Shown one piece after another: positions 10,503-40,530 of a stretch of 64,000 bases of DNA (positions are counted from its first letter, which is position 1; each line of letters starts with the position of its first letter). Location of the stretch: NCBI RefSeq assembly GCF_036373705.1, contig NC_089856.1, positions 13,174,501 to 13,238,500 on the forward strand, written 5' to 3'. Source of the stretch: Amia ocellicauda (lineage: Eukaryota; Chordata; Actinopteri; Amiiformes; Amiidae). Under the pieces are notes generated by a model. That model was not told where the DNA came from, searched no databases, and saw only the letters and a program-made list of their open reading frames with translations. Position numbers and translations under genes: made by a program.

Positions 10503-10581
<79 letters not shown>

Positions 10582-13500
10582 ATGTGTCTATGATAATAAT
10601 AGTGATGATCCTTGTTCAATAAGGCAATGATCATGGCAATATTTTAGAGAGTGAACTCATTAAAACAGCGAACAGACTCAATGCTATGGCAGTTTCTGTG
10701 TATGTATGTATGTATGTATGTATGTATGTATGTATGTATGCATGCATCTGTGTATCTATGTGTGCATTTGTTTGATTTGATTTGCTTGGATGTGCTCGTC
10801 TCCGCCGACGGCTCTGTGCAAGGGTGACTCAACAGCCAGCACAGGCACAGTCTGGAAGTAGGGCCAATACAGTAACCCAGCCGCCGCAGTGCGCAGCCAG
10901 CAGTGGAGGAACACACACAGACAGGGCAGGACTGGACTCTGTGCCGACTCTGTGTTGTTTTCATTTAACAAGATAGATAGAAGGGCTGTTTTGTTTTTGT
11001 TTAGTTTTTTCCAAAGAGGAAATGCCAGGGTGTAGCAGGGGGGGTCTCGTCTGTGAGTTTGCAGAGCAGAGACAGACTCAGTGTGTGACTTTATTACTGG
11101 GAGGTTGCCGGGGTCTAGAGGGGAGAGAGAGAAGGTAAGCAGAGTGGATTTGCTGAGAGAGAATAGAAAGAGAGAGAGGGAGGGAGATTCACTTGGAGCT
11201 CCTGTTATTGCAATCTTAAACTGAGCTGGCACTGAGTTACACTGCTCCCCAAGTGGTTTTCCAGGGTTGTTTAGTTATTTGTTTATGTAAGCTGTGGTGC
11301 AAAAGATTCATCCCAGTGTGGAGAAAGTGGTGTAGAGAGGTGCAGTTCTAATCTGGTCTGGAAGAAAGAGACATTCACTTCAATAACGTCTACTTTTCAT
11401 GGTGGTAACCTGTTTATCAATAAATTACACTTGAACTTAACAGGGGGCAAAAAGATATACATACATATATATAGTGATAGTACCTTGGAGACCATTTGGC
11501 TGGGACGCCCCCCTCGCCCTCCTATAGGAAACTCAATGGTCACGAGCGGGCAGACTGTCGTTGCGTTGCATTGCATTGTGTTGTGCGTCAGGGTGGTCCC
11601 CAGTGTGGGCAGTTGTATACAATTAGGCCCACAGCCTTGTTACCCTCAGAGCATGGCCTCGCAGCACAATCACAATCATCACAGCCACTGGTTAGGAGAG
11701 GCTGCGGAGGGGGCGGGGCTGTGGTGTGTGTGTGTGTGTGTATGTGTATGAGTATGTGTGTGTGCCTGTGTATATATGAGTGTGTGTGTGTGTGTGTGTG
11801 ATCATTTAAGATCCAATTGCACACTCAGACCCACCCCCTCTTAAGTATCCGAGCCACTCACATGTGGAAAGACTCACATGTTTTTTTAACATATATTTTA
11901 ATAATGAATATATATGTACTTATATAAGTTTTCCATATGGGCAGCATGAGAGAGACAGAACAACAGTAATGTTGCCGGCTGACCACAGCATACTCAGGGT
12001 TGGGGAGGACGCTGGGCACCCCCCTGTGTTAACTGTTAAGAAGCTGATTGTCTGTGCTTTGCCTGTAGCTGTACCTGTAGTGGGGTCGGGGGCAGTCCCT
12101 CTGCTGAAACCTGTGCTGCTGTAGAGTCACTGACTAGAGGACGAGGGTTTGACGCCTGAAGCACAGGAAGGTTCAGTACAGTTCAGTACAGTACCCTCAG
12201 GTTCAGTTCGGATCTCACTTTGGGTAAACACACCGAGTCACAGGACGAGTCACAGGACAAGTCCAGGAACCCCCGTAACAGATTCTCTAATGCTGACCTG
12301 CTGAACATGCATCCCTGCTCTGACAATGCATACACTACCCTCTGCTGGCAGGACAGAGTCAGGACGCCCTCTTCACTGGGCTGTACTGTGCTGTACTCTA
12401 CTGTCCTGCAGATCGTTGCACTCTATTGTACTGTATCGTAATGCACTGTGCTGCACTACACTGTACTGTATTCTACTGCACTGCAGTTTTTCTTATAGTG
12501 CTCACACCTTGTGGGATAATACAGCAAATCAGCACCAATCTCTAATTTAATTATTTTGTGTGTTTTCTCCTAGGCCCACCAGTTGTTAAGGTCACCACTG
12601 GCAACGCGGAGGAAAACGTGAGTCCCCAGGTCTTGACTCTTCTGATATTTTAAACCAATAAAAATAATGTGAGAAGATAGTTCAGCCAATGAGAGATGGA
12701 AGGGGAGTGTCAGGTGGAGTGTGGGCACCCAATGAAAGAGCAGGGTAAAACAGGCTGAAGAGATGGAACAGCCACTAGATTTAGAGGGGAGGACAGTGAG
12801 AGGGGAGACCAATGAATCTAAATCACAGATTACATGACACATCGCACGCACGCTGTGGGGCAGACTTGTCTTACTGTTTCCCTCAATTATAAACAGACCC
12901 ATCTTTCTCGTAACACACATTACACCACAGTATTGTGGCATATTAGTACAGTTTAGCACAGAAGAGCTGTAGTCTCACCTCTCAGCTGACAGCACCTGCC
13001 CTCTCTCTGTGTCCAGGCCCCCTGCCGCCAGCTCCTCAATGCAGTGCTGCTGGGCCTGAAGCCCACCGTGTTCCAGCCCCCAAACGACATCTACATCCCC
13101 AACTGCGACACCCGTGGCTTCTACCGCAAGATGCAGGTAAGCAGGGCACCGCCTGTGCCAGCAGTATTTGGTGTAGCTTCTTCTGCACTGTACTGTACGG
13201 TATTGTACTGCACTGGCACATACATTCTGTCATTCTGTACTGCACTGTACTATTGTACTGTATAGTACTGTACTGTATTGTGTCATGCTGTACTGTATTG
13301 CACTGCACTGTTTGTCGTACGGTGCTGTATTGCACTGTACTGTATTGTGTCATACTGTACTGTATTACACTGTACTGTTTTACTGTCTTGCACTGCAGTG
13401 TACTGTACTGTGCTGTACTGCTGTGTACTGTACTGTGTTGTTGTACTGTGTCATACTGTCTTGTGCTGTACAGTACAGTGTTGTGCTCTACTGACCTGTT

Positions 13501-13685
13501 CACGTATGCAATCCTACAACTACTGCCATTGCTATGATGGTGCTGAGTGCCTGCTCTCTCTGTCCCCACAGTGCCGCTCTTCCAAGGGCACCCAGAGGGG
13601 TGAGTGCTGGTGTGTGGACGAGCTCGGCCAGCTGCTGCCCTCCCCTGACCGGGACCCGGCCACCCTGCGTTGCGAAAGGGAGTGA
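9543..13685 (+). CDS. igfbp6: Insulin-like growth factor-binding protein 6
   Basis: Four exons, 9543-9870, 12574-12617, 13017-13136 and 13572-13685, join in frame to 201 aa; all introns are GT-AG. The product is a secreted protein that binds IGF-II and limits IGF receptor signalling. Residues 1-23 are a hydrophobic leu-rich signal peptide. The N-terminal IGFBP domain keeps Cys32, 35, 62, 69, 75 and 95, with CGVYTLSC and GLRC motifs, but lacks the GCGCC-type motif of other IGFBPs and several cysteines of human IGFBP6 (240 aa). A short linker carries a possible N-glycosylation site NRT at 106. The C-terminal thyroglobulin type-1 domain (127-198) has six Cys and the CWCV motif at 176-179. The start is chosen because CTCACCATGC is the first ATG followed by a signal peptide. 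It lies head-to-head with spryd3, as in human. Confidence 0.97.
10504..10580. repeat. Compound (TA)n(GA)n microsatellite
   Basis: TA dinucleotides over 10504-10546 pass directly into GA dinucleotides over 10547-10580, inside igfbp6 intron 1. Confidence 0.95.
10699..10742. repeat. (TATG)n tetranucleotide repeat
   Basis: About ten tandem TATG units within igfbp6 intron 1. Confidence 0.95.
13180..13498 (+). repeat. Degenerate pentamer repeat (ACTGT/ATTGC/ATTGT) in igfbp6 intron 3
   Basis: For some 310 bp the intron is built of 5-bp units, mostly ACTGT with ATTGC, ATTGT, GTCAT and TTTAC variants. Period five leaves several frames open, so long Tyr/Cys/Val/Leu-rich reading frames appear; these are not genes. 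The same unit occurs elsewhere in the window. Confidence 0.9.
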
Positions 13686-14940
13686 GGGAGCTTGGCACCC
13701 CGTGGAGGAGAGAGAGAAGGCGAGAGGTGGAAAGAAAGGGAGGATGGAGAAGGAGAGAGGAGGAGGAGGAGGAGGAAGACCACAGTGTGTGCTGGACACT
13801 GCACGTCCCCATCCCACCCCCCAACCCATCCCAGAGAGATGCAGGCCACAGACTGGGAACCCCCCCCCCCCCCCCACAAAAGATCATCTGCTCTCAACAC
13901 AAAACACACACACAACACCAGCACCCTGGACACAAGCATATCCCTCAACCATGCTTACTTTATACTCTTCCATTATGTTTGCAATGCAAGGCACACATTT
14001 CCCGGGGGTGACCATAGTTCCCCTAGTTGACACCGTAAAGCAGCGCGAACGTCGTTGAGAGTTCACTATAAGACTGTAGTGCCACACTGCCCTCTAGCGG
14101 TAATCTTATACCAGTCTCGCTGCAGAAATTTCTGTTCTCACGATGAGCATGTTTTTACCAAGAGGAGTTTATTTATTTATTTATTTATTTTAGGGAGTTG
14201 TTCTCGGGGAGGGGGGGGGGGGTCAGGGAAGGCCACTACCTGCCTAAATGAATTAGTAGTGGTCTTTTCCATCTTCCATTGTGTTCATGTGTTCATGTGG
14301 CGGTGTTCATTGTGTACCAAACACTATCTGTAATCACCACACAAGTATAGTTGAAAAGACCCACTGCCAAAATGACCTGGGGAGCCACACAGAGTTCAAG
14401 CGGATAAGCCGAATGATTGTAATGAAAGACTGAAGAAAAAACTAACAGTTGAGTAGAAAATTGCTGAAGTCAAAATTTTGCCGTGAATCAAAACCCACCC
14501 CCCCACCCCAAGACCACATTCAACTCCTTATTAATAAAAACACAATAGGGTACAGGTTTTGTGCTCGGCGATTGGTTGGCAGGGCAGAGTTTGGGTTTGG
14601 TCCCGATAAAGCATTGATCACACGTGCAGTTCGAACCCTCCGCCTCTCCCTCCATTTCCTTGGAGACACTGACAACATTACATATGATTATACCAAATGT
14701 TTATATTTAATTTATTCTGGAGTGATATGTTATTTTCTGTCTCACACACTTACACATACGCATATATGCAATGTATACAATCTATAGAAATCTAGAAACT
14801 CAACAGCTGTCTTCCATTTTTTCCCATATTTCCAACACCATCCTATAAACAACCAAAGAATTAATTTTAAAAAGCAACATGTCATCACATAATTTCCCTG
14901 TTTAACTGTTTTCTGGAGACTGCTGTACTTTTTGAGAATA

Positions 14941-19862: not shown

Positions 19863-22800
19863 TGATGATAATAATAAGACAAATATTAGTAATAATTATA
19901 GGTAAGTAACTTAATAAAATAAAACAGGATTTAGAAGTCTTATTAATACAAATTAAAGCATCCAGTTACTAAAGTGTGATTGTGTAGCTGTATGTATTAG
20001 TGTGGAAGTTCCTATGTGTGTGCTTGGGTGCATTTTGACTGTGTGTGTACCTGCATTTTCTCTGCATGTGTCTGTGTGTGTGTTAGTGTCTGCATTAGAT
20101 TCTGCTTTTGTGTGTCTGTGTGCATGCATGGGGGGCGGTGGGCAGTTGCTGCCTGATTATTAGAGGAAAACCGAATGTAATTTCCCACAATGCACTGCAG
20201 CAGTCCCATAATCCCTCCAGGAATCCATGGCTGGCCTGTACGATGCCCCGGTCTGTGCACTACACTCCTGCTCCTGATGCACATTTCACCCACTGCATGT
20301 TTATCCAGTCCAGTTGCTTATCTGAGTGTGTGCAGGGCTGTGATCAAAGGACTGTGCCTATTTTAAACAAAGCGAAACCGACCAACCAAGAACAGTGCCT
20401 GCATTGTGTAAAAGTGTCTTTGAGGCAGTGCTGTTTGGTAGCTGGTTCTCAACACGCAGAGGCCAGCCGTTGTGGCGTGAGAGACACTCTTGCCTCTTGC
20501 ATGTCAGCAAAGTGTGTGAAATTCCTTCAGCTGCTGTGTGAGAGAGGGAGGGGGTTTGGAGCTAGTGGTATCTGTGCATGTGTGTGTGCGCTACTGTATG
20601 CATGCAGTACTGTGTGTTTGTGTGTATGTGCTAGTGTTGTTGCAGACTGTGTGTGTTGCTGTGTCAGTGGGTGTTGCCGTGTGCTCCTCTCTGCAGGGAA
20701 AATCTTCCGGGACACTTCAAGTTCAAGGAGTACTGTCCACAGGTGTTCAGGAACCTGCGGGAGAGGTTCGGCATCGAGGACCAGGACTATCAGGTAGGGC
20801 AAAAAAAGGCTCGGGCACATCTCTCCCTCCCTCTTTATCTGGCTCTCTACCTTATTCTCCCCCTCCCTCTTTTCTTCTTCCCCTCTTACTCAACCACTCA
20901 CTGTCCATCACCCTCTCTCTCAGCCTTTTTCCCAACCTCTCTCCTTCCCTCTCACTCCCTGCCTTCCTCCCTCACACGCTCTCCATCACTGCCTCCCTCA
21001 CTCCATCACTCTCTGTGTTTCAGGTGTCTTTGGCCCGCAGCCCCCCGCTGGGCTCAGGAGAGGGTCGGGGGGAGGGGTTACTGCTGACCTCATATGACCG
21101 CACCCTGGTGGTCAAGCAGATCTCCAGCGAGGACGTCGCCGACATCCACAGCATCCTGTCCCAGTACCACCAGGTCTGTCCTTGTTTGTTTCTGTATGAC
21201 TCCAGAGTCAGTCTTTTACTGTCCAGCAGTCAGTCCATCCATCCTGTCCCAATACCATCAGGTCCATCTGTCTTGTCTTTGTGTCCAAGTGAAATCATGT
21301 TGTCTCTCTTTCTCAGTACAGAAATACTCACTATTTGCGCATCTGTAATCTCAAAGTAATGTGAAGTGTCCCTCTATTGGTCTCTTTGTCTGTGCATGTC
21401 CGTGTGTCCATCAGCACATTGTGACGTGCCACGGCAACACGCTGCTGCCACAGTTCCTGGGGATGTACCGGCTGGGTGTGGACAGTGAGGACACCTACAT
21501 CTTGGTCATGAGGAACATGTTCAGCCATCGGCTCCATGTGCACAGGAAGTACGACCTCAAGGTGAGAGGGAGGGAGGGAGAGTGAAATTAAACTTTCTAT
21601 GTCCACAAAGTTTAGTCCCATCCCAGCTGTGCAGACAGACAGGTAGGTGAGTTACTAGTTATAGCCACAGGAGGGAGCCCTCCTCCCACACACTCACACC
21701 AATGTAAAACACTCTTAGCATTGTGCTTCTCAAACAGATGCACACGTTCAGAACCACACTCTGCTACATTCCAGACTGCTCCTCTTTTCCTGTGTTGCGT
21801 TGTGTTGCTGTGCTCACAGCCCTGTTGGTGCCATTTACAGATGGTGTCACAAGGGGGGTCCTATTATTAACCATGGAAACAAAACACACTTTAAAATCCT
21901 GTTGCTTATAGTCATGTCCTGCAGCTTTGTGCAAATGGTGACATCATGGACAGCTTTTAAAATAAGGTGTAGTTTTTCTTTCTTTTTATAAAGGAATGAT
22001 TATCATCATTATTATTATTGTTGTTATTAATAATAATTATAAAAATAACAAGTGCCTGTCTGTGTTCCAGGGCTCACTGGTGTCCAGAGAAGCAAGTGAC
22101 AAAGAGAAGGTAAGATGGACAGCCACTGGATTGCTCCATTACTCTTCCCTCTCTCTCATATCTCTCTCATATCTCTTTCTCTCTCTCTTCCTCCTCCTCC
22201 CTGGCACTGCTGTCTGTCAGGTGAAGGAGCTGCCCACCTACAAGGATGTGGACTTCAGGAACAACATGCAGAAGGTGTACGTCAGTGAGGAGCAGAAGGA
22301 GAAGTTCCTGGAGAAACTCAACCGTGACGTGGAGGTCAGAACCCAATGCTTCTCCCCCATCCCACCCCCTCTCTCCCCCTCTCCTTCTCTTACCTAATTT
22401 CTACAAATTTAATTTCCATACTGTGTCCACACGGTACTCAAATGAAAAGCATTAAATGAAAGCATGCCAGGCTGTCCCCACAAACTGTTCTTCCATGTAA
22501 TGACTCTATACCTAGAATGGTAACCATGGCAATGACTGTAAATGCAGTGTTAAGATGCAGTTTTTATATGCAATATACACCGATCAGCCATAACATTATG
22601 ACCACCTGCCCATGGACTCCACTAGACCTCTGAAGGTGTGCTGTGGTATCTGGCACCAAGACGTTCACAGCAGATCCTTTAAGTCCTGTAAGTTGCGAGG
22701 TTGGGCCTCCATGGATCGAACTTAATTGTCGAGCACATCCCACAGATGCTCGATTGGATTGAGATCTGGGGAATTTGGAGGCCAAGTCAACACCTTGAAC

Positions 22801-25196
22801 TCGTGATTCATTAGACCAGGCCACCTTCTTCCATTGCTCCGTGGTCCAGTTCTGATGCTCACGTGCCCATTGTAGGCGCTTTCGGCAGTGGACAGGGGTC
22901 AGCATGGGCACCCTGACTGGTCTGCAGCTACGCAGCCCCATACGCAACAAACTGCGATGCACTGTGTGTTCTGACACCTTTCTATCAGAACCAGCATTCA
23001 CTTTTTCAGCAATTTGAGCTACAGTAGCTCGTCCGTATGATCGGACCACACGGGCCAGCCTTTGCTCCCCACGTGCATCAATGAGCCTTGGCCGCCCACG
23101 ACCCTGTAGCCGGTTCACCGCTTTTCCTTCCTTGGACCACTTTTGATAGGTACTGACCACTGCAGACCGGGAACACCCCACAAGAGCTGCAGGTTTGGAG
23201 ATGCTCTGACCCAGTCGTCTAGCCATCACAATTTGGCCCTTGTCAAAGTCGCTCAGATCCTTACGCTTGCCAGTTTTTCCTGCTTCTAACACATCAACTT
23301 TGAGGACAAAATGTTCACTAATATATCCCACCCACTGACAGGTGCCATGATAACAAGATTATCAGTGTTATTCACTTCACCTGTCAATGGTTATAATGTT
23401 ATGGCTGATTTGGTGTATATTTTAGCAATGGTGTTCAAAAATTATCCCTTCAAAATCCATAACTAGTACTAGAGTAGAATTGATTGCCCCAGCACTGGTA
23501 ATTATAGGACACTGTCCTAAAATATATGCCCAATAATAATTGGATAATAGTATCTGCATACCTTACGCCCCTGTCCATTTACGTGGTTTAGATCCTTCTA
23601 TACAGGATAGTCAACTAAAAAAAAAAAAAAAAAGTTTCTCTCAATTCCTGAGCTTCTCGAGATTCCTGACTGCAGTGTTGAGCTGTTCATATTCATATTT
23701 AGGTCACCTTTCTGCCCCTCAAAAAATTTAGGCCGGGTCAAAAAGCGGGACTAGTTTTCACCCGGCTCAGGGCCGCCTTAAAACTATGACCCCCCTTCCC
23801 GTTCACATTTAAGTTAAGGCGCCCCTGGGCCAGCCTAAATCTCAAATGTAAACGGGGAATATTCACCCCATGTTTTTATCAGAATTTTAATGTCAACCGA
23901 CATTCTTGTGCCGTTGCATAGACTCTCACAACAGTCAGCACCGTGCCAGTGTCAGATATGAAAGGATGCTGGCACGGCATGGTGCTGACGCGGCAGGGCA
24001 CAGTAAGGATTTGTAAAAACATTGTGGAAACAACTCGGCACACTTTCACTACAGTGTCAGCACCATGCCACCATGGTGTTGCAGTGTTGTGGAAAACAAG
24101 GCATCTCTTTCTCTCTCCCCCATTTGTGATGCACCATTTCCCTCTCCCTGTTCCTCTTCAACTATGTCTCTTACAGAGGGTAAAACAAAAAACGTTTCTA
24201 CCATGGCTCCCTGTATAACTAGTGGAGCCCCCCTCCCTGTTTTATGTACAGACAGAACGGCTCCTCTAAGCTTCCCAAATTAATTCACTCTCCCATTGAA
24301 TCTGAACACAGTAACTCATTATGTATCTTCCCTGTCAGGAAAAGCAAACTAATTTATTAGTTCAATAATAATTAACAAAATATTTATTCCTCTCCGCCTC
24401 CTCACTTTGTATTCTCACTCGCTCCCCTTGTGTCCCTATGCCCTGGTTCCTGCTGTTTAGTTCCTGGTGCGCTTGAAGATCATGGACTACAGCCTGCTGC
24501 TGGGGATCCACGATGTGTCCCGGGCCGAGCAGGAGGAGGAGGAGGAACAGGCGAGCGGGGAGGAGGCAGAGCCTGAGAACGGGGTCTCCGGCCCGGTCGT
24601 GGGTTCCTACGGCAACTCCCCCGAGGGTATCGCTGGGTACCTAAATGCACACAAGCCCCTGGGACCGGGCGAGTTCGACCCTTACATCGATGTGTACGCC
24701 CTGAAGAGCGCACCCAGTGAGTGTCACTGTTAGTGGGGCTGGGGAGGAGGCTCTGGGTGTCTCTCCCTCCCTCTCTGTGTGCTGTTCCCTCCCTCTGTGC
24801 ATCTCTGTCCCTGTCCTTCCCCGTCTCTCTCTGCATGTGTCCGGTGCAAATGTTACCCGGGATATGCATTTGTCTCGCAGGCGCCCCCCAGAGGGAGGTG
24901 TACTTCATGGGGCTGATCGATGTGCTGACGCAGTACGACACCAAGAAAAAAGCTGCCCACGCCGCCAAGACTGTGAAACATGGGGTAAGATGGCAGGGTG
25001 AGAGAGGGAGAGACTGGTCAACTTATAGTGTGATCATTATGTATCCACTCTATTCGTTACAGAGCTGTACTTGATAAGTAAAACCATTGTCTGCTTGTCT
25101 ACCTTCTCCTCCCAGGCTGGGGCAGAGATCTCCACAGTCCACCCCGAGCAGTATGCCAAGCGCTTCCGAGACTTTATCGCCAACATCTTTGCATAG
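18662..25196 (+). CDS. pip4k2c: Phosphatidylinositol-5-phosphate 4-kinase type 2 gamma
   Basis: Ten exons join in frame to 414 aa (human about 421): 18662-18820, 19689-19786, 20697-20793, 21024-21173, 21415-21561, 22071-22109, 22221-22334, 24461-24716, 24881-24984, 25116-25196. The enzyme adds phosphate at position 4 of PI5P to make PI(4,5)P2; the gamma form has weak activity and is linked to autophagy and mTORC1 control. Visible motifs: [14 protein letters not shown] near 24-36, [10 protein letters not shown] with the probable ATP-binding Lys, [32 protein letters not shown], an acidic EQEEEEEQ insert, [10 protein letters not shown], the MGLID metal-binding motif, and an activation segment with [14 protein letters not shown]. 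The C-terminus ends [11 protein letters not shown]. All introns are GT-AG; donors of exons 1, 4 and 7 (GTGCGT, GTCTGT, GTCAGA) are weak. The ATG is the first after a GC-rich 5' region and fits the family start. Confidence 0.98.
18821..19688 (+). other. pip4k2c intron 1
   Basis: Starts GTGCGT and ends TCCCAG. AT-rich, no exon or RNA gene recognised. Confidence 0.9.
19807..19861. repeat. (GT)27 microsatellite in pip4k2c intron 2
   Basis: 55 bp of uninterrupted GT starting about 20 bp after the exon 2 donor. The rest of the 910-bp intron is GT-rich with no gene. Confidence 0.97.
22335..24460 (+). other. pip4k2c intron 7
   Basis: The largest intron of the gene (2.1 kb). It carries a Tc1 deletion copy (22576-23417), a stretch at 23700-23870 with GC-rich dispersed-repeat character, and a set of related inverted copies of a CAGCACC/GTGCCAG sequence at 23934-24090. 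Confidence 0.85.
22576..23417 (-). mobile_element. Tc1-like transposon, internally deleted copy 1
   Basis: Inverted ends (TACACCGATCAGCCATAACA left, TGTTATGGCTGATTTGGTGTA-type right) are flanked by TA. The minus-strand frame 23331-22564 keeps the paired helix-turn-helix region ([20 protein letters not shown], a [18 protein letters not shown] block) and the start of the catalytic domain up to VAWSNESR, then jumps to DNA that in another frame encodes the block ending in PDLNPIE. The central part with the second catalytic Asp is missing, and the first Asp is Asn. It cannot make active transposase. Confidence 0.93.
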
Positions 25197-28270: not shown

Positions 28271-28307
<37 letters not shown>

Positions 28308-28639
28308 TAACATAACTTAATAAGATACATGCAGAAAATGCACAGTTACGTAGTAAGTCTGCCGTAGTATCTGAGCCCATCCACTGTGCCCCGTGTCGTC
28401 AGTCTTCATAGTGTCAGTCTGGTCCTCAGACACCAGCCCTGGGGACATCACAGGAGCCTGAGACACGCAGGGGAATGAGAACCACAGCTGACACACATAT
28501 AGGGGTGGTCCAAACGAGGGGGCCGTCGAGATCCCCTGACCTCCAGAAAAATTTAACAAAAAGCTGAAAATTGGGGGGGGGGAAACGAACTAAAAAAAAT
28601 TCTCTCCCTCTCCCCTCACTCCACTCTCCCTCTCTCCAG
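27749..28639 (+). other. Putative gpr182 intron with AT microsatellites
   Basis: Contains TA tracts at about 27847-27870 and 28271-28304. No gene recognised. Its 3' edge is a good acceptor (polypyrimidine, then CAG at 28637-28639). Confidence 0.45.
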
Positions 28640-28652
28640 GCTACCCACCACC

Positions 28653-29741
28653 ATGCACGCCCACAATGCGTCAGAGGCCAACCACTTGGACACTAACTTC
28701 TCCATGCCCTGGTTCGTGTACGAATGCACACTGGAGCTGGATGTGCAGTATCGGCGGATCACGCTGTTCCTGCTCTACCTGCTAGTGTTTGTGGCTGGGC
28801 TGGCGGAGAACGGGCTGGTGGTGTGGGTCAACTGGCGCCGGCGCCACTCTCGAAGCGCAGTCACCTTCTGCGTGCTCAACGTGTGCCTGGCAGACCTGGT
28901 CATGGTGCTGGTGCTGCCCTTCTACATGCTGGAGGTGGCGCTGCACAACGTGTGGCTGTGGGGCCGGGCCCTGTGCAAGATCAGCCACCTGCTGTACATG
29001 GCCAACTTCTACGGCGGCACCTTCTTCCTCGCCTACATGGCGGTGGAGCGCTACCTGGCCCTGGTGCAGCCCCCACCCAGCTGGGGCCCACAGGAGAAGC
29101 GACGGCGGGCGCTGGTGTGTGGAGGGCTGTGGGCCCTGGCCCTGTTCCTCACTGTCCTTGAGAACGTGCACGTGGACCTGCTAGAGTGGGATGAGCCCGG
29201 CTGCTATATGATCCCTGAACACAGCTACACGGAGTGGTACACCACCCTCACCATGCTGTCCATAGTCTTCCAGTTCCTGCTGCCAGGCGCGGTCATCATC
29301 ACTTTCAACGTGCTCCTGGCCCGCGCTGTGCGCTCAGCCCCTGGGGTGGAGGGCCGGCGCGACACTTGGGTGGTGCACCTGTACTCCCTGGTGTTCGTGC
29401 TGTGCTACCTGCCCTATCACCTGATCATGGTCCTGCTGATGGTGGATGAACTTTTACCCCTGGCCTTCAGCTGCAACATGATGGAGTTCCTGTACTTCTC
29501 TTACAGCATCATGCAGTGCCTGTCACTCTTCCACTGCATTGCCAATCCCATCCTCTACAACTTTCTGAGCCCTGCCTTCCGCACGCATCTCGTCAATGCT
29601 CTGCTGAGCCACCTCTCCCGCACCCCTGCCCCCACCAACCAACTCAACGCCAACACCAATGCCAAATCTGCCAGCCCCCCTGTCCAGGAAGGGAGAGAGA
29701 TCCAGGATTCGGACACCAGCCACTCGGACATTGTGACGTAA
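28653..29741 (+). CDS. gpr182: G protein-coupled receptor 182 (atypical chemokine receptor type)
   Basis: One open exon of 362 aa with strong start context CCACCATGC, 13 nt after a splice acceptor. The mammalian protein is an endothelial seven-helix receptor that scavenges chemokines (also named ACKR5). Two N-glycosylation sites lie at the outer N-terminus (N5, N15). Seven hydrophobic segments are visible, roughly 35-58, 69-92, 106-130, 153-172, 197-222, 241-263 and 278-303. Cys108 and Cys184 can form the usual disulfide. Helix 7 has NPILY at 298-302 followed by NFLSPAFR, matching the family closely. Two microswitch changes stand out: ERY at 132-134 in place of DRY, and CYLP at 251-254 where most receptors have CWLP. 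The tail is Ser/Thr/Asp-rich. Position next to zbtb39, tail to tail, agrees with the human order. Confidence 0.96.
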   Translation: MHAHNASEANHLDTNFSMPWFVYECTLELDVQYRRITLFLLYLLVFVAGLAENGLVVWVNWRRRHSRSAVTFCVLNVCLADLVMVLVLPFYMLEVALHNVWLWGRALCKISHLLYMANFYGGTFFLAYMAVERYLALVQPPPSWGPQEKRRRALVCGGLWALALFLTVLENVHVDLLEWDEPGCYMIPEHSYTEWYTTLTMLSIVFQFLLPGAVIITFNVLLARAVRSAPGVEGRRDTWVVHLYSLVFVLCYLPYHLIMVLLMVDELLPLAFSCNMMEFLYFSYSIMQCLSLFHCIANPILYNFLSPAFRTHLVNALLSHLSRTPAPTNQLNANTNAKSASPPVQEGREIQDSDTSHSDIVT

Positions 29742-35200: not shown

Positions 35201-35609
35201 CTGCCTCTGCGCCGAGTCCCTGCAGGTCGGGGAAAGTGGTGTGGCAGGCACGCACCAGCTCCCGCACACCCAGCCTCTCGGCCACCTCGTACAGCACGCC
35301 CACATCCACGAGCTCCGTGAACAGCTCGGCCGTATAGATGAACGTCAGCACCTTCTCGAAATTCGCCGGCGACACGAAGTCCACCTCAAAGGTCCGGACG
35401 CTGCCACCGCCATCTTGCCCCGCTTCTCCGCCGGCTGCAAACAAGCCCCGGAAGTAGGCAGCGGCGCAGGCCAGGATGGCACGGTGGGCGGGGAAGGAGC
35501 GCCCCCCCACCTGGAGCTGCACGTCACACAGCGAGCGCGACAGCCGGCAGCGGTTGAGCTCGGTCAGCAGGCTGGACGCGTAGCCCGGCCCCTGCAGACG
35601 GACCCTCAT
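32242..35609 (-). CDS. zbtb39: Zinc finger and BTB domain-containing protein 39
   Basis: Three exons, 35609-33951, 33532-32750 and 32475-32242, join in phase 0 to 891 aa (human about 712). It is a predicted nuclear DNA-binding regulator. The N-terminal BTB domain (about 1-125) shows [20 protein letters not shown] and [21 protein letters not shown] long Ser/Pro/Glu-rich linker follows, with an acidic run near 400 and the IELSDDEE motif. C2H2 fingers fill the C-terminal half; the last ones, [38 protein letters not shown] and [19 protein letters not shown], and the tail [19 protein letters not shown] match the human C-terminus. Both introns are GT-AG and short (418 and 274 nt). I use the Met of MRVRL; the human start MGMR suggests an upstream exon (see 36749-36812). 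The extra length over human lies mainly in linkers. Confidence 0.95.
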
Positions 35610-35878
35610 CCCTATCGCCACTCACCCCGCCCCCCCCCCCCCCCCGTCTCAACTGGGATGACACAAGCAGAGATGCACGAACACACACATACACAGAGAC
35701 AAGCGCACACATGCAGAGAAGCACAAAGATGCAATCCCAGGAATGGGAAGCACAGAGAGGACCGATGGGAGGATAAGGGGGAAAGACAAGGACAAGAAAG
35801 AAACCGCCAAAGACATACAGACAGCACGACACAAACACCCACATTTACATAGCCAGGCAGAGGACCAGACACACACAC

Positions 35879-36022
<144 letters not shown>

Positions 36023-36748
36023 TGTGGTTAAGTGGTGCAATCGGTGTCAGGTTCACAAAACATTACGCTGCTTTGTGGTTAGTCCTGGAACTGGATTGTA
36101 CAGTCTCGAATACGGAATACAGCAGAGAAGCAGAGTTAGAATGAACCTGTTAGATACCCATCGGCTTCTACCGATTTCGACACATTACAATACTAAAATA
36201 ATAAGACCAAGACTTATGAGCGATAGGTCCATTTTTTATTTTTACCTATTTGTTCATTCAGCCAAGATGACAGGTTTCACAGACCCAGATCAGCACTAGT
36301 CACGGACTACCCAATGTTATTTTAATTACAGTAGTCCTAGTGCTGACCGAGGTCCGTGCACCCATCCATTAAAGTCTTAAACTAAGCAATTTATTTGGAT
36401 TTTATGTCCGCGCTTGAAGTACTAGTAGTAGCAGAATAAAAATAAGAATAAGAAACACAACCGAGCAACAGTTCAGACGAACTTATTAATGTAAATAACA
36501 AACAACCACCAACACTGTAAATAAAAACTGTACATACGATGAACACTAGCAATTTACAGACACGTTTAAATTACAATACTGTACATTTAATGAACACAAA
36601 GATGGGATCTCACACAGATATATTTGCATCTATATGAACTGGAATAACAGTCTAACGAACTGTGTTGAGAAAGAACAGCCACATCGTTAAGGTGTCTGAG
36701 GGGCTATATTTTACACACACTGTTCATGTCAATAAATGATGGACTTAC

Positions 36749-36812
36749 CCATGAAATACACCTGGTCCGAGACAGTGTCTTTCTGCAGCCCCAGTCCCCG
36801 ACATAGCACCAT
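36749..36812 (-). other. zbtb39: Candidate 5' exon of zbtb39
   Basis: On the minus strand an ATG at 36812 opens MVLCRGLGLQKDTVSDQVYF then Met, ending ATG G before a consensus donor GTAAGT. The main coding exon is preceded by GATAG, and joining there (35611) gives Met-Gly-Met-Arg, the same four residues that begin human ZBTB39. So translation may start at the last Met of this exon (36752) or 20 codons earlier. The proposed acceptor lacks a nearby pyrimidine tract, which is the main argument against. Promoter-like ETS sites lie directly upstream. Confidence 0.45.
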
Positions 36813-36836
36813 GAAGCCAGCACCATTAGCAACAAT

Positions 36837-36894
36837 AAGAGTTCTACTTCCGGTACGCAAAACAGCTGTTTCTCTTACCGGAAGTAGAACTCTT
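36837..36894. promoter_or_regulatory. 58-bp palindrome with mirrored ETS sites, candidate zbtb39 promoter core
   Basis: Perfect 19-bp inverted arms (36837-36855 and 36876-36894), each with the ETS site CCGGAAGT, enclose a 12-bp palindrome AAACAGCTGTTT (36860-36871) on the same centre. It sits just upstream of the candidate zbtb39 5' exon. ETS/GABP sites mark many housekeeping promoters. Confidence 0.55.
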
Positions 36895-37105
36895 CTTCTT
36901 GATCAATATTATTGAGTTTCTATATCTGTGGTTACTAGCTTCACGCTACATCTGTGCCAGTTTAATTAGAGGATCTTTGCTCTCGGCTAAAACTCAAATC
37001 TGGCTCTCCACAGGCAGCGGATAGCGCCACACAGCGGTCGGAGGTGAGAAGTGCAGAGACTGGAATGAATGGAACTGAGCTATTAGAACTAGACAGCTCG
37101 TTATA

Positions 37106-38030
37106 TACACTGATCAGCCATAACATTATGACACCTGACAGGTGAAGTGAATAACAATAATAATAACTATTATTAAATAACTGATAATCTCGTTATCATG
37201 GCACCTGTCAGTGGGTGGGATATATTAGGCAGAAAGTGAACATTTTGTCCTCAAAAGTTGATGTGTTAGAAACAGGAAAAATGGGCAGCGTAAGGATCTG
37301 AGCGACTTTGACAAGGGCCAAATTGTGATGGCTAGATGACTGGGTCAGAGCATCTCCAAAACTGCAGCTCTTGTGGGGTGTTCCCGGTCTGCAGTGGTCA
37401 GTACCTATCAAAAGTGGTCCAAGGAAGGAAAAGCGGTGAACCGGCGACAGGGTCATGGGCGGCCAAGGCTCATTGATGCGCATGGGGAGCGAAGGCTGGC
37501 CCGTGTGGTCCGATCCAACAGACGAGCTACTGTAGCTCAAATTGCTGAAAAAGTGAATGCTGGTTCTGATAGAAAGGTGTCAGAACACACAGTGCATCGC
37601 AGTTTGTTGCGTATGGGGCTGCGTAGCCGCAGACCAGTCAGGGTGCCCATCCTGACCCCTGTCCACTGTCGAAATGCCTATAATGGGCACGTGAGCATCA
37701 GAACTGGACCATGGAGCAATGGAAGAAGGTGGCCTGGTCTGATGAATCACTAGTTCAAGGTGTTGACTTGGCCTCCAAATTCCCCAGATCTCAATCCAAT
37801 CGAGAATCTGTGGGATGTGCTGGACAAACAAGTCCGATCCATGGAGGCCCCACCTCGCAACTTACAGGACTTAAAGGATCTGCTGCTAACGTCTTGGTGC
37901 CAGATACCACAGCACGCCTTCAGAGGTCTAGTGGAGTCCATGCCTCGACGGGTCAGGGCTGTTTTGACGGCAAAAGGGGGACCTACACAATATTAGGCAG
38001 GTGGTCATAATGTTATGGCTGATCGGTGTA
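37106..38030 (+). mobile_element. Tc1-like transposon, internally deleted copy 2
   Basis: Ends TACACTGATCAGCCATAACA and GTTATGGCTGATCGGTGTA-type, flanked by TA. Plus-strand pieces encode the transposase helix-turn-helix region (37373 on: [40 protein letters not shown]) and, after a frame change near 37757, [19 protein letters not shown] through the C-terminus ending KGGPTQY at 37995. The middle of the catalytic domain is absent at exactly the same join as in the copy at 22576-23417. Not coding for an active enzyme. Confidence 0.93.
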
Positions 38031-38765
38031 TATACACTACACACTGGCTTCTTTAGTATAACTACATCTGAGGTACATATTCTTAAAAATGCTATCATAG
38101 ACACAAATATACCTGCTTTTATACTAATGCTACTAACCTTCTTACCTGTGTGGAAGAAAACTCAGTCTTCATTCAGGTTGTTGTACTAATCAAGCAAATT
38201 ATTTATTCATGCAGCATGAAGAGAGAAACAGTACCCTAGCAGTGTAACATTCCTCTTTCCCTCAGTTCCTCTCAGCAGGGAGTTTCATACTCCTGCACGG
38301 ACAAAGAGGCTTGTTATCAGACCAAGAAAAACATCATAAAGAAATAAATCAAGCCCCAGATTGAGCTGGCCTTCGGTTGTCAGCTTCAGCAGACTACAAC
38401 CCGCCAGTCGGACTAATCAGAAAAGACACATATGTTCACCTTCCTAAACTAAAAGGGGAACAATTCTTGCTCTGTATTTCACAAACTAACTAGTTTTAAT
38501 ACTTGCAACTATAAAATATAAAATAATAACATATTTTATATGAAATATTAACATGAAAAAGTATTTCAAAATGTATTTCTACACCTGTCACATACTATCA
38601 CAACTCCTACATTGTACTTCAACTAACCCTAATCACTGATACTAACCAGCCTATTACCATACAAAATAATACATAATCAGTAATATATTATGCAAAACGT
38701 TCTGTGCCACATAGACAAAATATCTGCAGGTTCTTTAACATTGTGTAGAGCTTGTAGAGCCACTA
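38031..38765. other. Spacer between two transposons
   Basis: AT-rich, no frame or RNA gene recognised. Confidence 0.6.
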
Positions 38766-39958
38766 TACACTCACCTAAAGGATTATTAGGAACACCTGTT
38801 CAATTTCTCATTAATGCAATTATCTAACCAACCAATCACATGGCAGTTGCTTCAATGCATTTAGGGGTGTGGTCCTGGTCAAGATAATCTCCTGAACTCC
38901 AAACTGAATGTCTGAATGGGAAAGAAAGGTGATTTAAGCAATTTTGAGTGTGGCATGGTTGTTGGTGCCAGACGGGCACAATCTGCTCAGTTACTGGGAT
39001 TTTCACGCACAACCATTTCTAGGGTTTACAAAGAATGGTGTGAAAAGGGAAAAACATCCAGTATGTGGCAGTCCTGTGGGCGAAAATGCCTTGTTGATGC
39101 TAGAGGTCAGAGGAGAATGGGCCGACTGATTCAAGCTGATAGAAGAGCAACTTTGACTGAAATAACCACTCGTTACAACCGAGGTATGCAGCAAAGCATT
39201 TGTGAAGCCACAACACGTACAACCTTGAGGCAGATGGGCTACAACAGCAGAAGACCCCACCGGGTACCACTCATCTCCACTACAAATAGGAAAAAGAGGC
39301 TACAATTTGCACAAACTCACCAAAATTGGACAGTTGAAGACTGGAAAAATGTTGCCTGGTCTGATGAGTCTCGATTTCTGTTGAGACATTCAGATGGTAG
39401 AGTCAGAATTTGGCATAAACAGAATGAGAACATGGATCCATCATGCCTTGTTACCACTGTGCAGGCTGGTGGTGGTGTAATGGTGTGGGGGATGTTTTCT
39501 TGGCACACTTTAGGCCCCTTAGTGCCAATTGGGCATCGTTTAAATGCCACGGCCTACCTGAGCATTGTTTCTGACCATGTCCATCCCTTTATGACCACCA
39601 TGTACCCATCCTCTGATGGCTACTTGCAGCAGGATAATGCACCATGTCACAAAGGTCGAATCATTTCAAATTGGTTTCTTGAACATGACAATGAGTTCAC
39701 TGTACTAAACTGGCCCCCACAGTCACCAGATCTCAACCCAATAGAGCATCTTTGGGATGTGGTGGAACGGGAGCTTCATGCCCTGGATGTGCATCCCACA
39801 AATCTTCATCAACTGCAAGATGCTATCCTATCAATATGGACCAACATTTCTAAAGATTGTTGAATCAATGCCACGTAGAATTAAGGCAGTTCTGAAGGCG
39901 AAAGGGGGTCAAACACAGTATTATTATGGTGGTCCTAATAATCCTTTAGGTGAGTGTA
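38766..39958 (+). mobile_element. Tc1/mariner-type transposon, nearly full length, 1193 bp
   Basis: Inverted ends (TACACTCACCTAAAGGATTA left, matching inverted copy right) are flanked by TA, the usual target duplication of this superfamily. It contains a single long transposase frame (38916-39863). It differs in ends and protein from the two deleted Tc1 copies nearby, so it is a separate family. Confidence 0.96.
38916..39863 (+). pseudogene. Tc1-like transposase, DD36E spacing, damaged at both ends
   Basis: 315-aa frame. It has a paired helix-turn-helix domain (LLGFSRTTISRVYKEWCEKG), a GRKCLVDARGQRRMGRL block, and a DDE domain with VAWSDESRF, YLQQDNAPCH and [12 protein letters not shown]. 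Between the second Asp (QQD) and the Glu (PIE) I count 36 residues, not the usual 34. Two lesions are likely: the first helix is short by several residues after MVVGARRA compared with relatives, and the frame stops at ISKDC while the normal ending (VESMPRRIKAVLKAKGG) continues in another frame from about 39863, so a small deletion shifted it. Probably inactive but young. Confidence 0.85.
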
Positions 39959-40530
39959 TACTGAGATGTGTGCATGGTGACAATTGCAATTATCCTAATG
40001 CAATCGTGTTCATGAATGTGAGAGGAGTTGAATGTAAGTGTCAGCAAAATAAATACTGCCACTACCACCACTACTATTACTACTGCTCCTGCTACTACTA
40101 ATGTTCCTGTACTATAAATATCAGCTTTCGCAGCACTCTGTCAGATCCTAACAGGGCCAGAATTACAGCAGATCCAGGCACCGTTATGTTTTGTGCTTGG
40201 TGTTGTTTTTTAATAGCAAAACTAAATGAGAGTGAGAGGGGGATTGAGAAAGAGAGGGAGAGAGACAACCTTCCATGATTCACAGAAAACCAATACAAAA
40301 ACCTCCGATCACACAGATTGTCATTTCTCTTCTTTTTCCGTATAAATTTTATTGTATTTTTTTATTGTACAGCAGATAAAAGTTTCACTTTTTTTCATCA
40401 TCATATTAATAATAATTACAATAATCATCATCATCATCATAAAAAAAACTCTTGCAAAAAAAGAAAACATTGATTGAAACAACAGAAATAATTCTGTTCA
40501 AAATTCAAAAATTCTAATCCAAAAAAAATC

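Follow-up and report, generated by a model that had tools for sequence, protein, structure and literature searches.

The zbtb39 candidate and its surroundings

The window, that is the whole 64-kb stretch of DNA that was analysed, carries a minus-strand open frame from 33744 to about 35609 with a BTB domain (Pfam, E = 3.2e-22), and the next minus-strand open frame has zinc-finger matches, one of three lying above the curated cut-off. We take this BTB/zinc-finger gene to be zbtb39 and the BTB frame to be its coding exon, with an acceptor-like site that would set the first base of the exon at 35652. Both frames fit zbtb39, and the 60 PDB matches listed of 92 are other BTB or zinc-finger proteins. 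Next to it, 28557-29741 encodes a receptor with atypical chemokine receptor 3 as its best PDB match. This would fit gpr182, which adjoins ZBTB39 in the human genome.

Further upstream on the minus strand there is a donor-like site, ATGG/GTAAGT, with its GT at 36748. It would end a candidate first exon of zbtb39, or the rest of one, at 36749-36836. If this donor is joined to the acceptor at 35652, the zbtb39 frame has stops before an ATG, so the first exon would be non-coding, and a coding one was set aside. The candidate exon holds an open frame of 22 residues, for which no PDB match was found at E values up to 10. On the other side of the palindrome described below, the plus-strand donor-like site GAG/GTGAGA (GT at 37044) would end a speculative divergent exon at 36895-37043. 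When donors were ranked with an approximate matrix over 7759 GT sites, the site at 36748 came 69th and the one at 37044 came 34th. These two sites suggest, but do not prove, that the palindrome is flanked by an exon on one side or on both. The minus strand between 35600 and 37100 has four donor-like words and four acceptor-like sites, 36748 and 35652 being one of each; together with the rank of the donor this means that the candidate exon may be wrong.

Read along the minus strand, the near edge of the palindrome precedes the donor-like site at 36748 by 89 bp. The first-pass annotation had placed the palindrome directly upstream of a candidate zbtb39 first exon, and this placement is plausible for a non-coding exon given the BTB coding exon, the acceptor-like site at 35652 and the donor-like site at 36748. 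The signals that bear on adjacency to a zbtb39 transcription start are splice-like ones, the donor- and acceptor-like sites. No CpG island was found at the palindrome; the GC content is 0.45 and the observed/expected CpG ratio 0.52 at 36701-36900, and the corresponding values at 36801-37000 are 0.40 and 0.64, which counts against a promoter here. None of the literature matches listed is evidently about the zbtb39 promoter. Work listed on ETS sites together with palindromes or cruciforms concerns the SRF site of c-Fos and p53, and work listed on GABPA and NRF1 concerns binding maps in nine species. A long GA/CT dinucleotide tract, whose translation shows RE and SL repeats, occupies about 35870-36040 in the candidate first intron.

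Mobile elements are found close by. A Tc1-like element at 37102-38034 has 31-nt terminal inverted repeats that are 97 percent complementary, and the longest open frame listed for it, at 37340-37753 on the plus strand, encodes 137 residues with a Tc3-type HTH match. An open frame of this length makes the element look decayed. A second Tc1-like element, at 38761-39963, is bounded by inverted repeats of 36 nt that are 94 percent complementary, and its open frame at 38916-39863 encodes 315 residues with HTH_Tnp_Tc3_2 and DDE_3 domains. Elsewhere in the window, a 264-residue open frame at 22564-23358 (minus strand) resembles the transposase of the first element by eye, and overlapping open frames on both strands at 12947-13893, with repetitive YCTVLY-like and QYSTVQ-like residues, suggest a degenerate short DNA repeat.

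A concentric palindrome with two ETS sites

The palindrome is striking to the eye, and the analysis confirmed it. Two perfect 19-bp arms at 36837-36855 and 36876-36894 are reverse complements of each other, and they share their centre, 36865.5, with a perfect inner 12-bp palindrome, AAACAGCTGTTT, at 36860-36871. The letters and coordinates of the arms and of the inner palindrome are exactly as first annotated. It had also been claimed that four bases on each side break the symmetry. The arms and the inner palindrome are indeed perfect, but only three of the four pairs between them are mismatched and one is matched, so that the 58 bp from 36837 to 36894 have 26 of their 29 pairs matched. This extent is symmetric as claimed, but it is not the full one; a weaker symmetry continues outside it, and the whole quasi-palindrome at 36830-36901 has 31 of 36 pairs matched around the same centre.

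Such symmetry is far beyond chance. Counted outward from the centre with +1 for a matched and -2 for a mismatched pair, the palindrome scores 21, as compared to best scores per window of 7 to 11 in 40 first-order Markov shuffles of the window. The longest perfect pair of inverted arms with a spacer of up to 100 is 19 bp here and 14 bp in 100 shuffles. The 15 best centres listed in the window (scores 22 to 18) belong either to this palindrome or to (TA)n, in tracts near 2060-2101 and 10504-10547. Inverted 15-mer pairs with the same spacer limit number 108 in the window, five of them from the palindrome and the rest from (TA)n, which also forms such pairs at 28274.

Each arm holds one copy of the 9-mer ACCGGAAGT, which we take to be the ETS/GABP consensus. 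In the left arm it is read on the minus strand at 36846-36854, appearing as ACTTCCGGT on the plus strand with its core TTCC at 36848-36851, and in the right arm it is read on the plus strand at 36877-36885 with its core GGAA at 36880-36883. The mirrored pair described earlier is thus present in full, once per arm. These are the only two copies in 64 kb, against 0.28 expected from 100 shuffles. The word CCGGAAGT occurs three times in the window (1.12 expected), the third time at 35448 in the coding exon. The looser CGGAAG occurs 15 times where 15.86 are expected, so ETS-like words as such are not enriched. A donor-like site, CCG/GTAAGA at 36878 on the minus strand, overlaps the ETS site of one arm and ranks 68th of the 7759 GT sites by the approximate matrix.

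The two GGAA cores stand back to back and point away from each other, 32 bp (32.0) from core to core, which is 3.05 turns at 10.5 bp per turn. The locus thus has two features of a GABP paired ETS promoter, two consensus sites close together and a spacing near a whole number of turns. In the TERT promoter, GABP tetramers are reported to favour two ETS sites in phase with a 10.5-bp periodicity; a spacing of 22 bp was best, and activity was partly regained near 30 bp, never as high as at two turns (PMC9481613). These spacing tests were made in human cancer cell lines (PMC9481613). Among human promoters that carry a pair of inverted ETS motifs, GABPA is described as preferring closely spaced and ETS1 distantly spaced motifs, the preference of GABPA being on a coarse scale of +/-1000 bp; helical phase was analysed in that study for ETS1 and mutant p53 rather than for GABPA (PMC3964217). 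The reading of the palindrome as a paired ETS/GABP site is upheld in part: 32 bp, about three helical turns, is a meaningful distance in the light of this work (PMC9481613, PMC3964217), but the E-box at the centre is not special. Its core, CAGCTG, occurs 44 times in the window, and we no longer regard the E-box as a meaningful part of the arrangement.

Origin of the symmetry

The reading that we prefer, with a probability of about one half, is that an inverted duplication arose by template switching at the candidate zbtb39 promoter and left a paired ETS site, most likely one for GABP. During replication the nascent strand would have folded back at or near the small inner palindrome, and a promoter segment with an ETS site would have been copied as its reverse complement. 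Such an event is a template-switch mutation of short range, and a few pairs would have diverged later. The concentric inner palindrome would fit either a once continuous palindrome or a fold-back primed there. The two back-to-back consensus sites, about three helical turns apart, could then serve as a paired ETS activator site in the core promoter of zbtb39, and possibly one that fires in both directions. GABP is reported to be linked to bidirectional transcription (PMC4089025, citing Collins 2007). The locus shows what such a mutation would leave behind, a near-perfect local inverted repeat beyond chance. Template switching is reported to make short, local and perfect inverted repeats (PMC8794818, PMC7954356), and a study in yeast describes that it also homogenises the arms (PMC8604942).

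The mismatch pattern is roughly compatible with random decay of a once perfect palindrome. If five mismatches are placed at random among 36 pairs, an unbroken stretch of at least 19 matches has p = 0.10 and three mismatches within four pairs have p = 0.12; with three mismatches in 29 pairs the values are 0.13 and 0.02. The last value puts a mild strain on simple random decay, as the mismatches are clustered in the middle. The values of about 0.1 for the long run mean that the perfect arms by themselves do not prove selection, and arm identity was set aside as evidence for it.

The same pattern also suits a relic without added function. A template switch may have left an inverted duplicate near a promoter, where one of the ETS sites may work and the symmetry itself is idle; this is possible, although we consider it rather unlikely. 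The mismatches are roughly as expected from neutral decay, and inverted repeats made by template switching arise across genomes (PMC7954356, PMC8794818). Against a relic speak the full 9-bp ETS consensus, kept in both copies, and the spacing close to three helical turns. These points are not strong, because both would follow if the duplication is simply young. In that case the palindrome would be an inverted duplication of an ordinary kind.

A stronger form of the template-switch reading is that a single event turned a promoter with one ETS site into a symmetric bidirectional promoter for a GABP tetramer, with a donor-like site on either side, at 36748 (minus strand) and 37044 (plus strand). 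We find this form doubtful. Were it true, the locus would be a direct example of a replication error that builds a cooperative promoter in one step.

It is improbable that the palindrome is instead the end, or the whole, of a dispersed element, either a very short MITE-like foldback or the 3' end of a Helitron. The Tc1-like elements are near; the first begins about 210 bp from the palindrome and the second about 1.9 kb from it. The 3' ends of Helitrons have a hairpin and a CTRR word, and on the minus strand the CTRR-like CTAA follows 7 nt after the perfect arm, beside the hairpin. This is a weak hint; by our estimate a CTRR word falls within such a distance by chance in about one case in ten, and the stem and loop exceed those of typical Helitron ends. 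Moreover, no target-site duplication was seen by eye, and BLAST with 7-base words and E up to 1 found no other copy of the palindrome in the 64-kb window, so within this window the check proposed earlier for a dispersed repeat gave a negative result. A search of viral contigs, which has very little power as a test, gave no match to the exact 19-bp arm. An exact 17-bp part of the arm was found at 11 loci in genome contigs of bacteria and archaea, where by our arithmetic about 30 chance matches are expected in 257 billion bases, and at none of the 11 was there an exact second arm within 60 bases upstream.

Still less probable is that the palindrome acts as RNA. Were transcription to begin at 36895 or further out, the 5' leader would carry a strong hairpin, which could limit translation or be processed as the precursor of a small RNA. 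The minus-strand 58-mer folds at -35.6 kcal/mol and a minus-strand stretch of 203 nt has z = -6.2, but any near-perfect palindrome folds equally well. ETS sites usually stand at or just upstream of transcription starts, which would leave most of the hairpin outside the RNA. An Rfam search over 36000-38000 gave a match to mir-3145 (E = 0.001, 31.4 bits), which is on the plus strand and falls well short of the 98 bits set as gathering score; a microRNA gene of this family was rejected, as was WsnRNA46, the second match, with 21.4 against a gathering score of 65.3.

To extrude a cruciform whose stem is 19 bp long and whose middle of 20 nt is partly paired, strong supercoiling is needed locally. 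That this happens here, as a regulatory or fragile DNA structure, is highly improbable. As single-stranded DNA the palindrome folds at -20.9 kcal/mol (z = -8.7), but this energy follows from the symmetry. One study states that in vivo observations point to cruciforms in genomes, and it examines a promoter transcription-factor site in vitro (PMC11613138). Folding as RNA and as a cruciform are both consequences of the symmetry alone and give neither explanation independent support.

If a template switch that left a paired ETS site is the right reading, the locus is a clean and testable case of a single error in replication that gave an activator site a second copy, at a helical phase favourable to GABP. 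It would link a known mutation mechanism to promoter evolution, as a neat but fairly ordinary promoter change.

Comparison with known systems

The ETS sites of the TERT promoter are not known to stand back to back. The mutations and duplications described for that promoter (PMC9481613) share with the present locus a pair of ETS cores whose distance is close to a whole number of helical turns, whereas the sites here are mirrored, back to back and 32 bp apart, in a candidate fish promoter known from its sequence. The human promoters with inverted ETS motifs (PMC3964217; Collins 2007 via PMC4089025) share the inverted and closely spaced pair, the arrangement that GABPA is reported to prefer. In contrast to these, our sites lie inside a long concentric palindrome, and the divergent transcript is a guess from splice signals.

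A promoter is also known in which a pair of ETS sites surrounds a CRE, and it shares with the palindrome the second ETS site on the opposite strand. Between the sites here there is no CRE (TGACGTCA), and the CAGCTG palindrome takes the middle instead.

Hairpins ascribed to template switching (PMC8794818, and a study of great apes, PMC7954356) resemble the palindrome in being short, near-perfect local inverted repeats of tens of bases. Those examples concern microRNA or rRNA genes, whereas ours is at a candidate promoter, and the event proposed here is deduced from the present sequence rather than from a reconstructed ancestral state.
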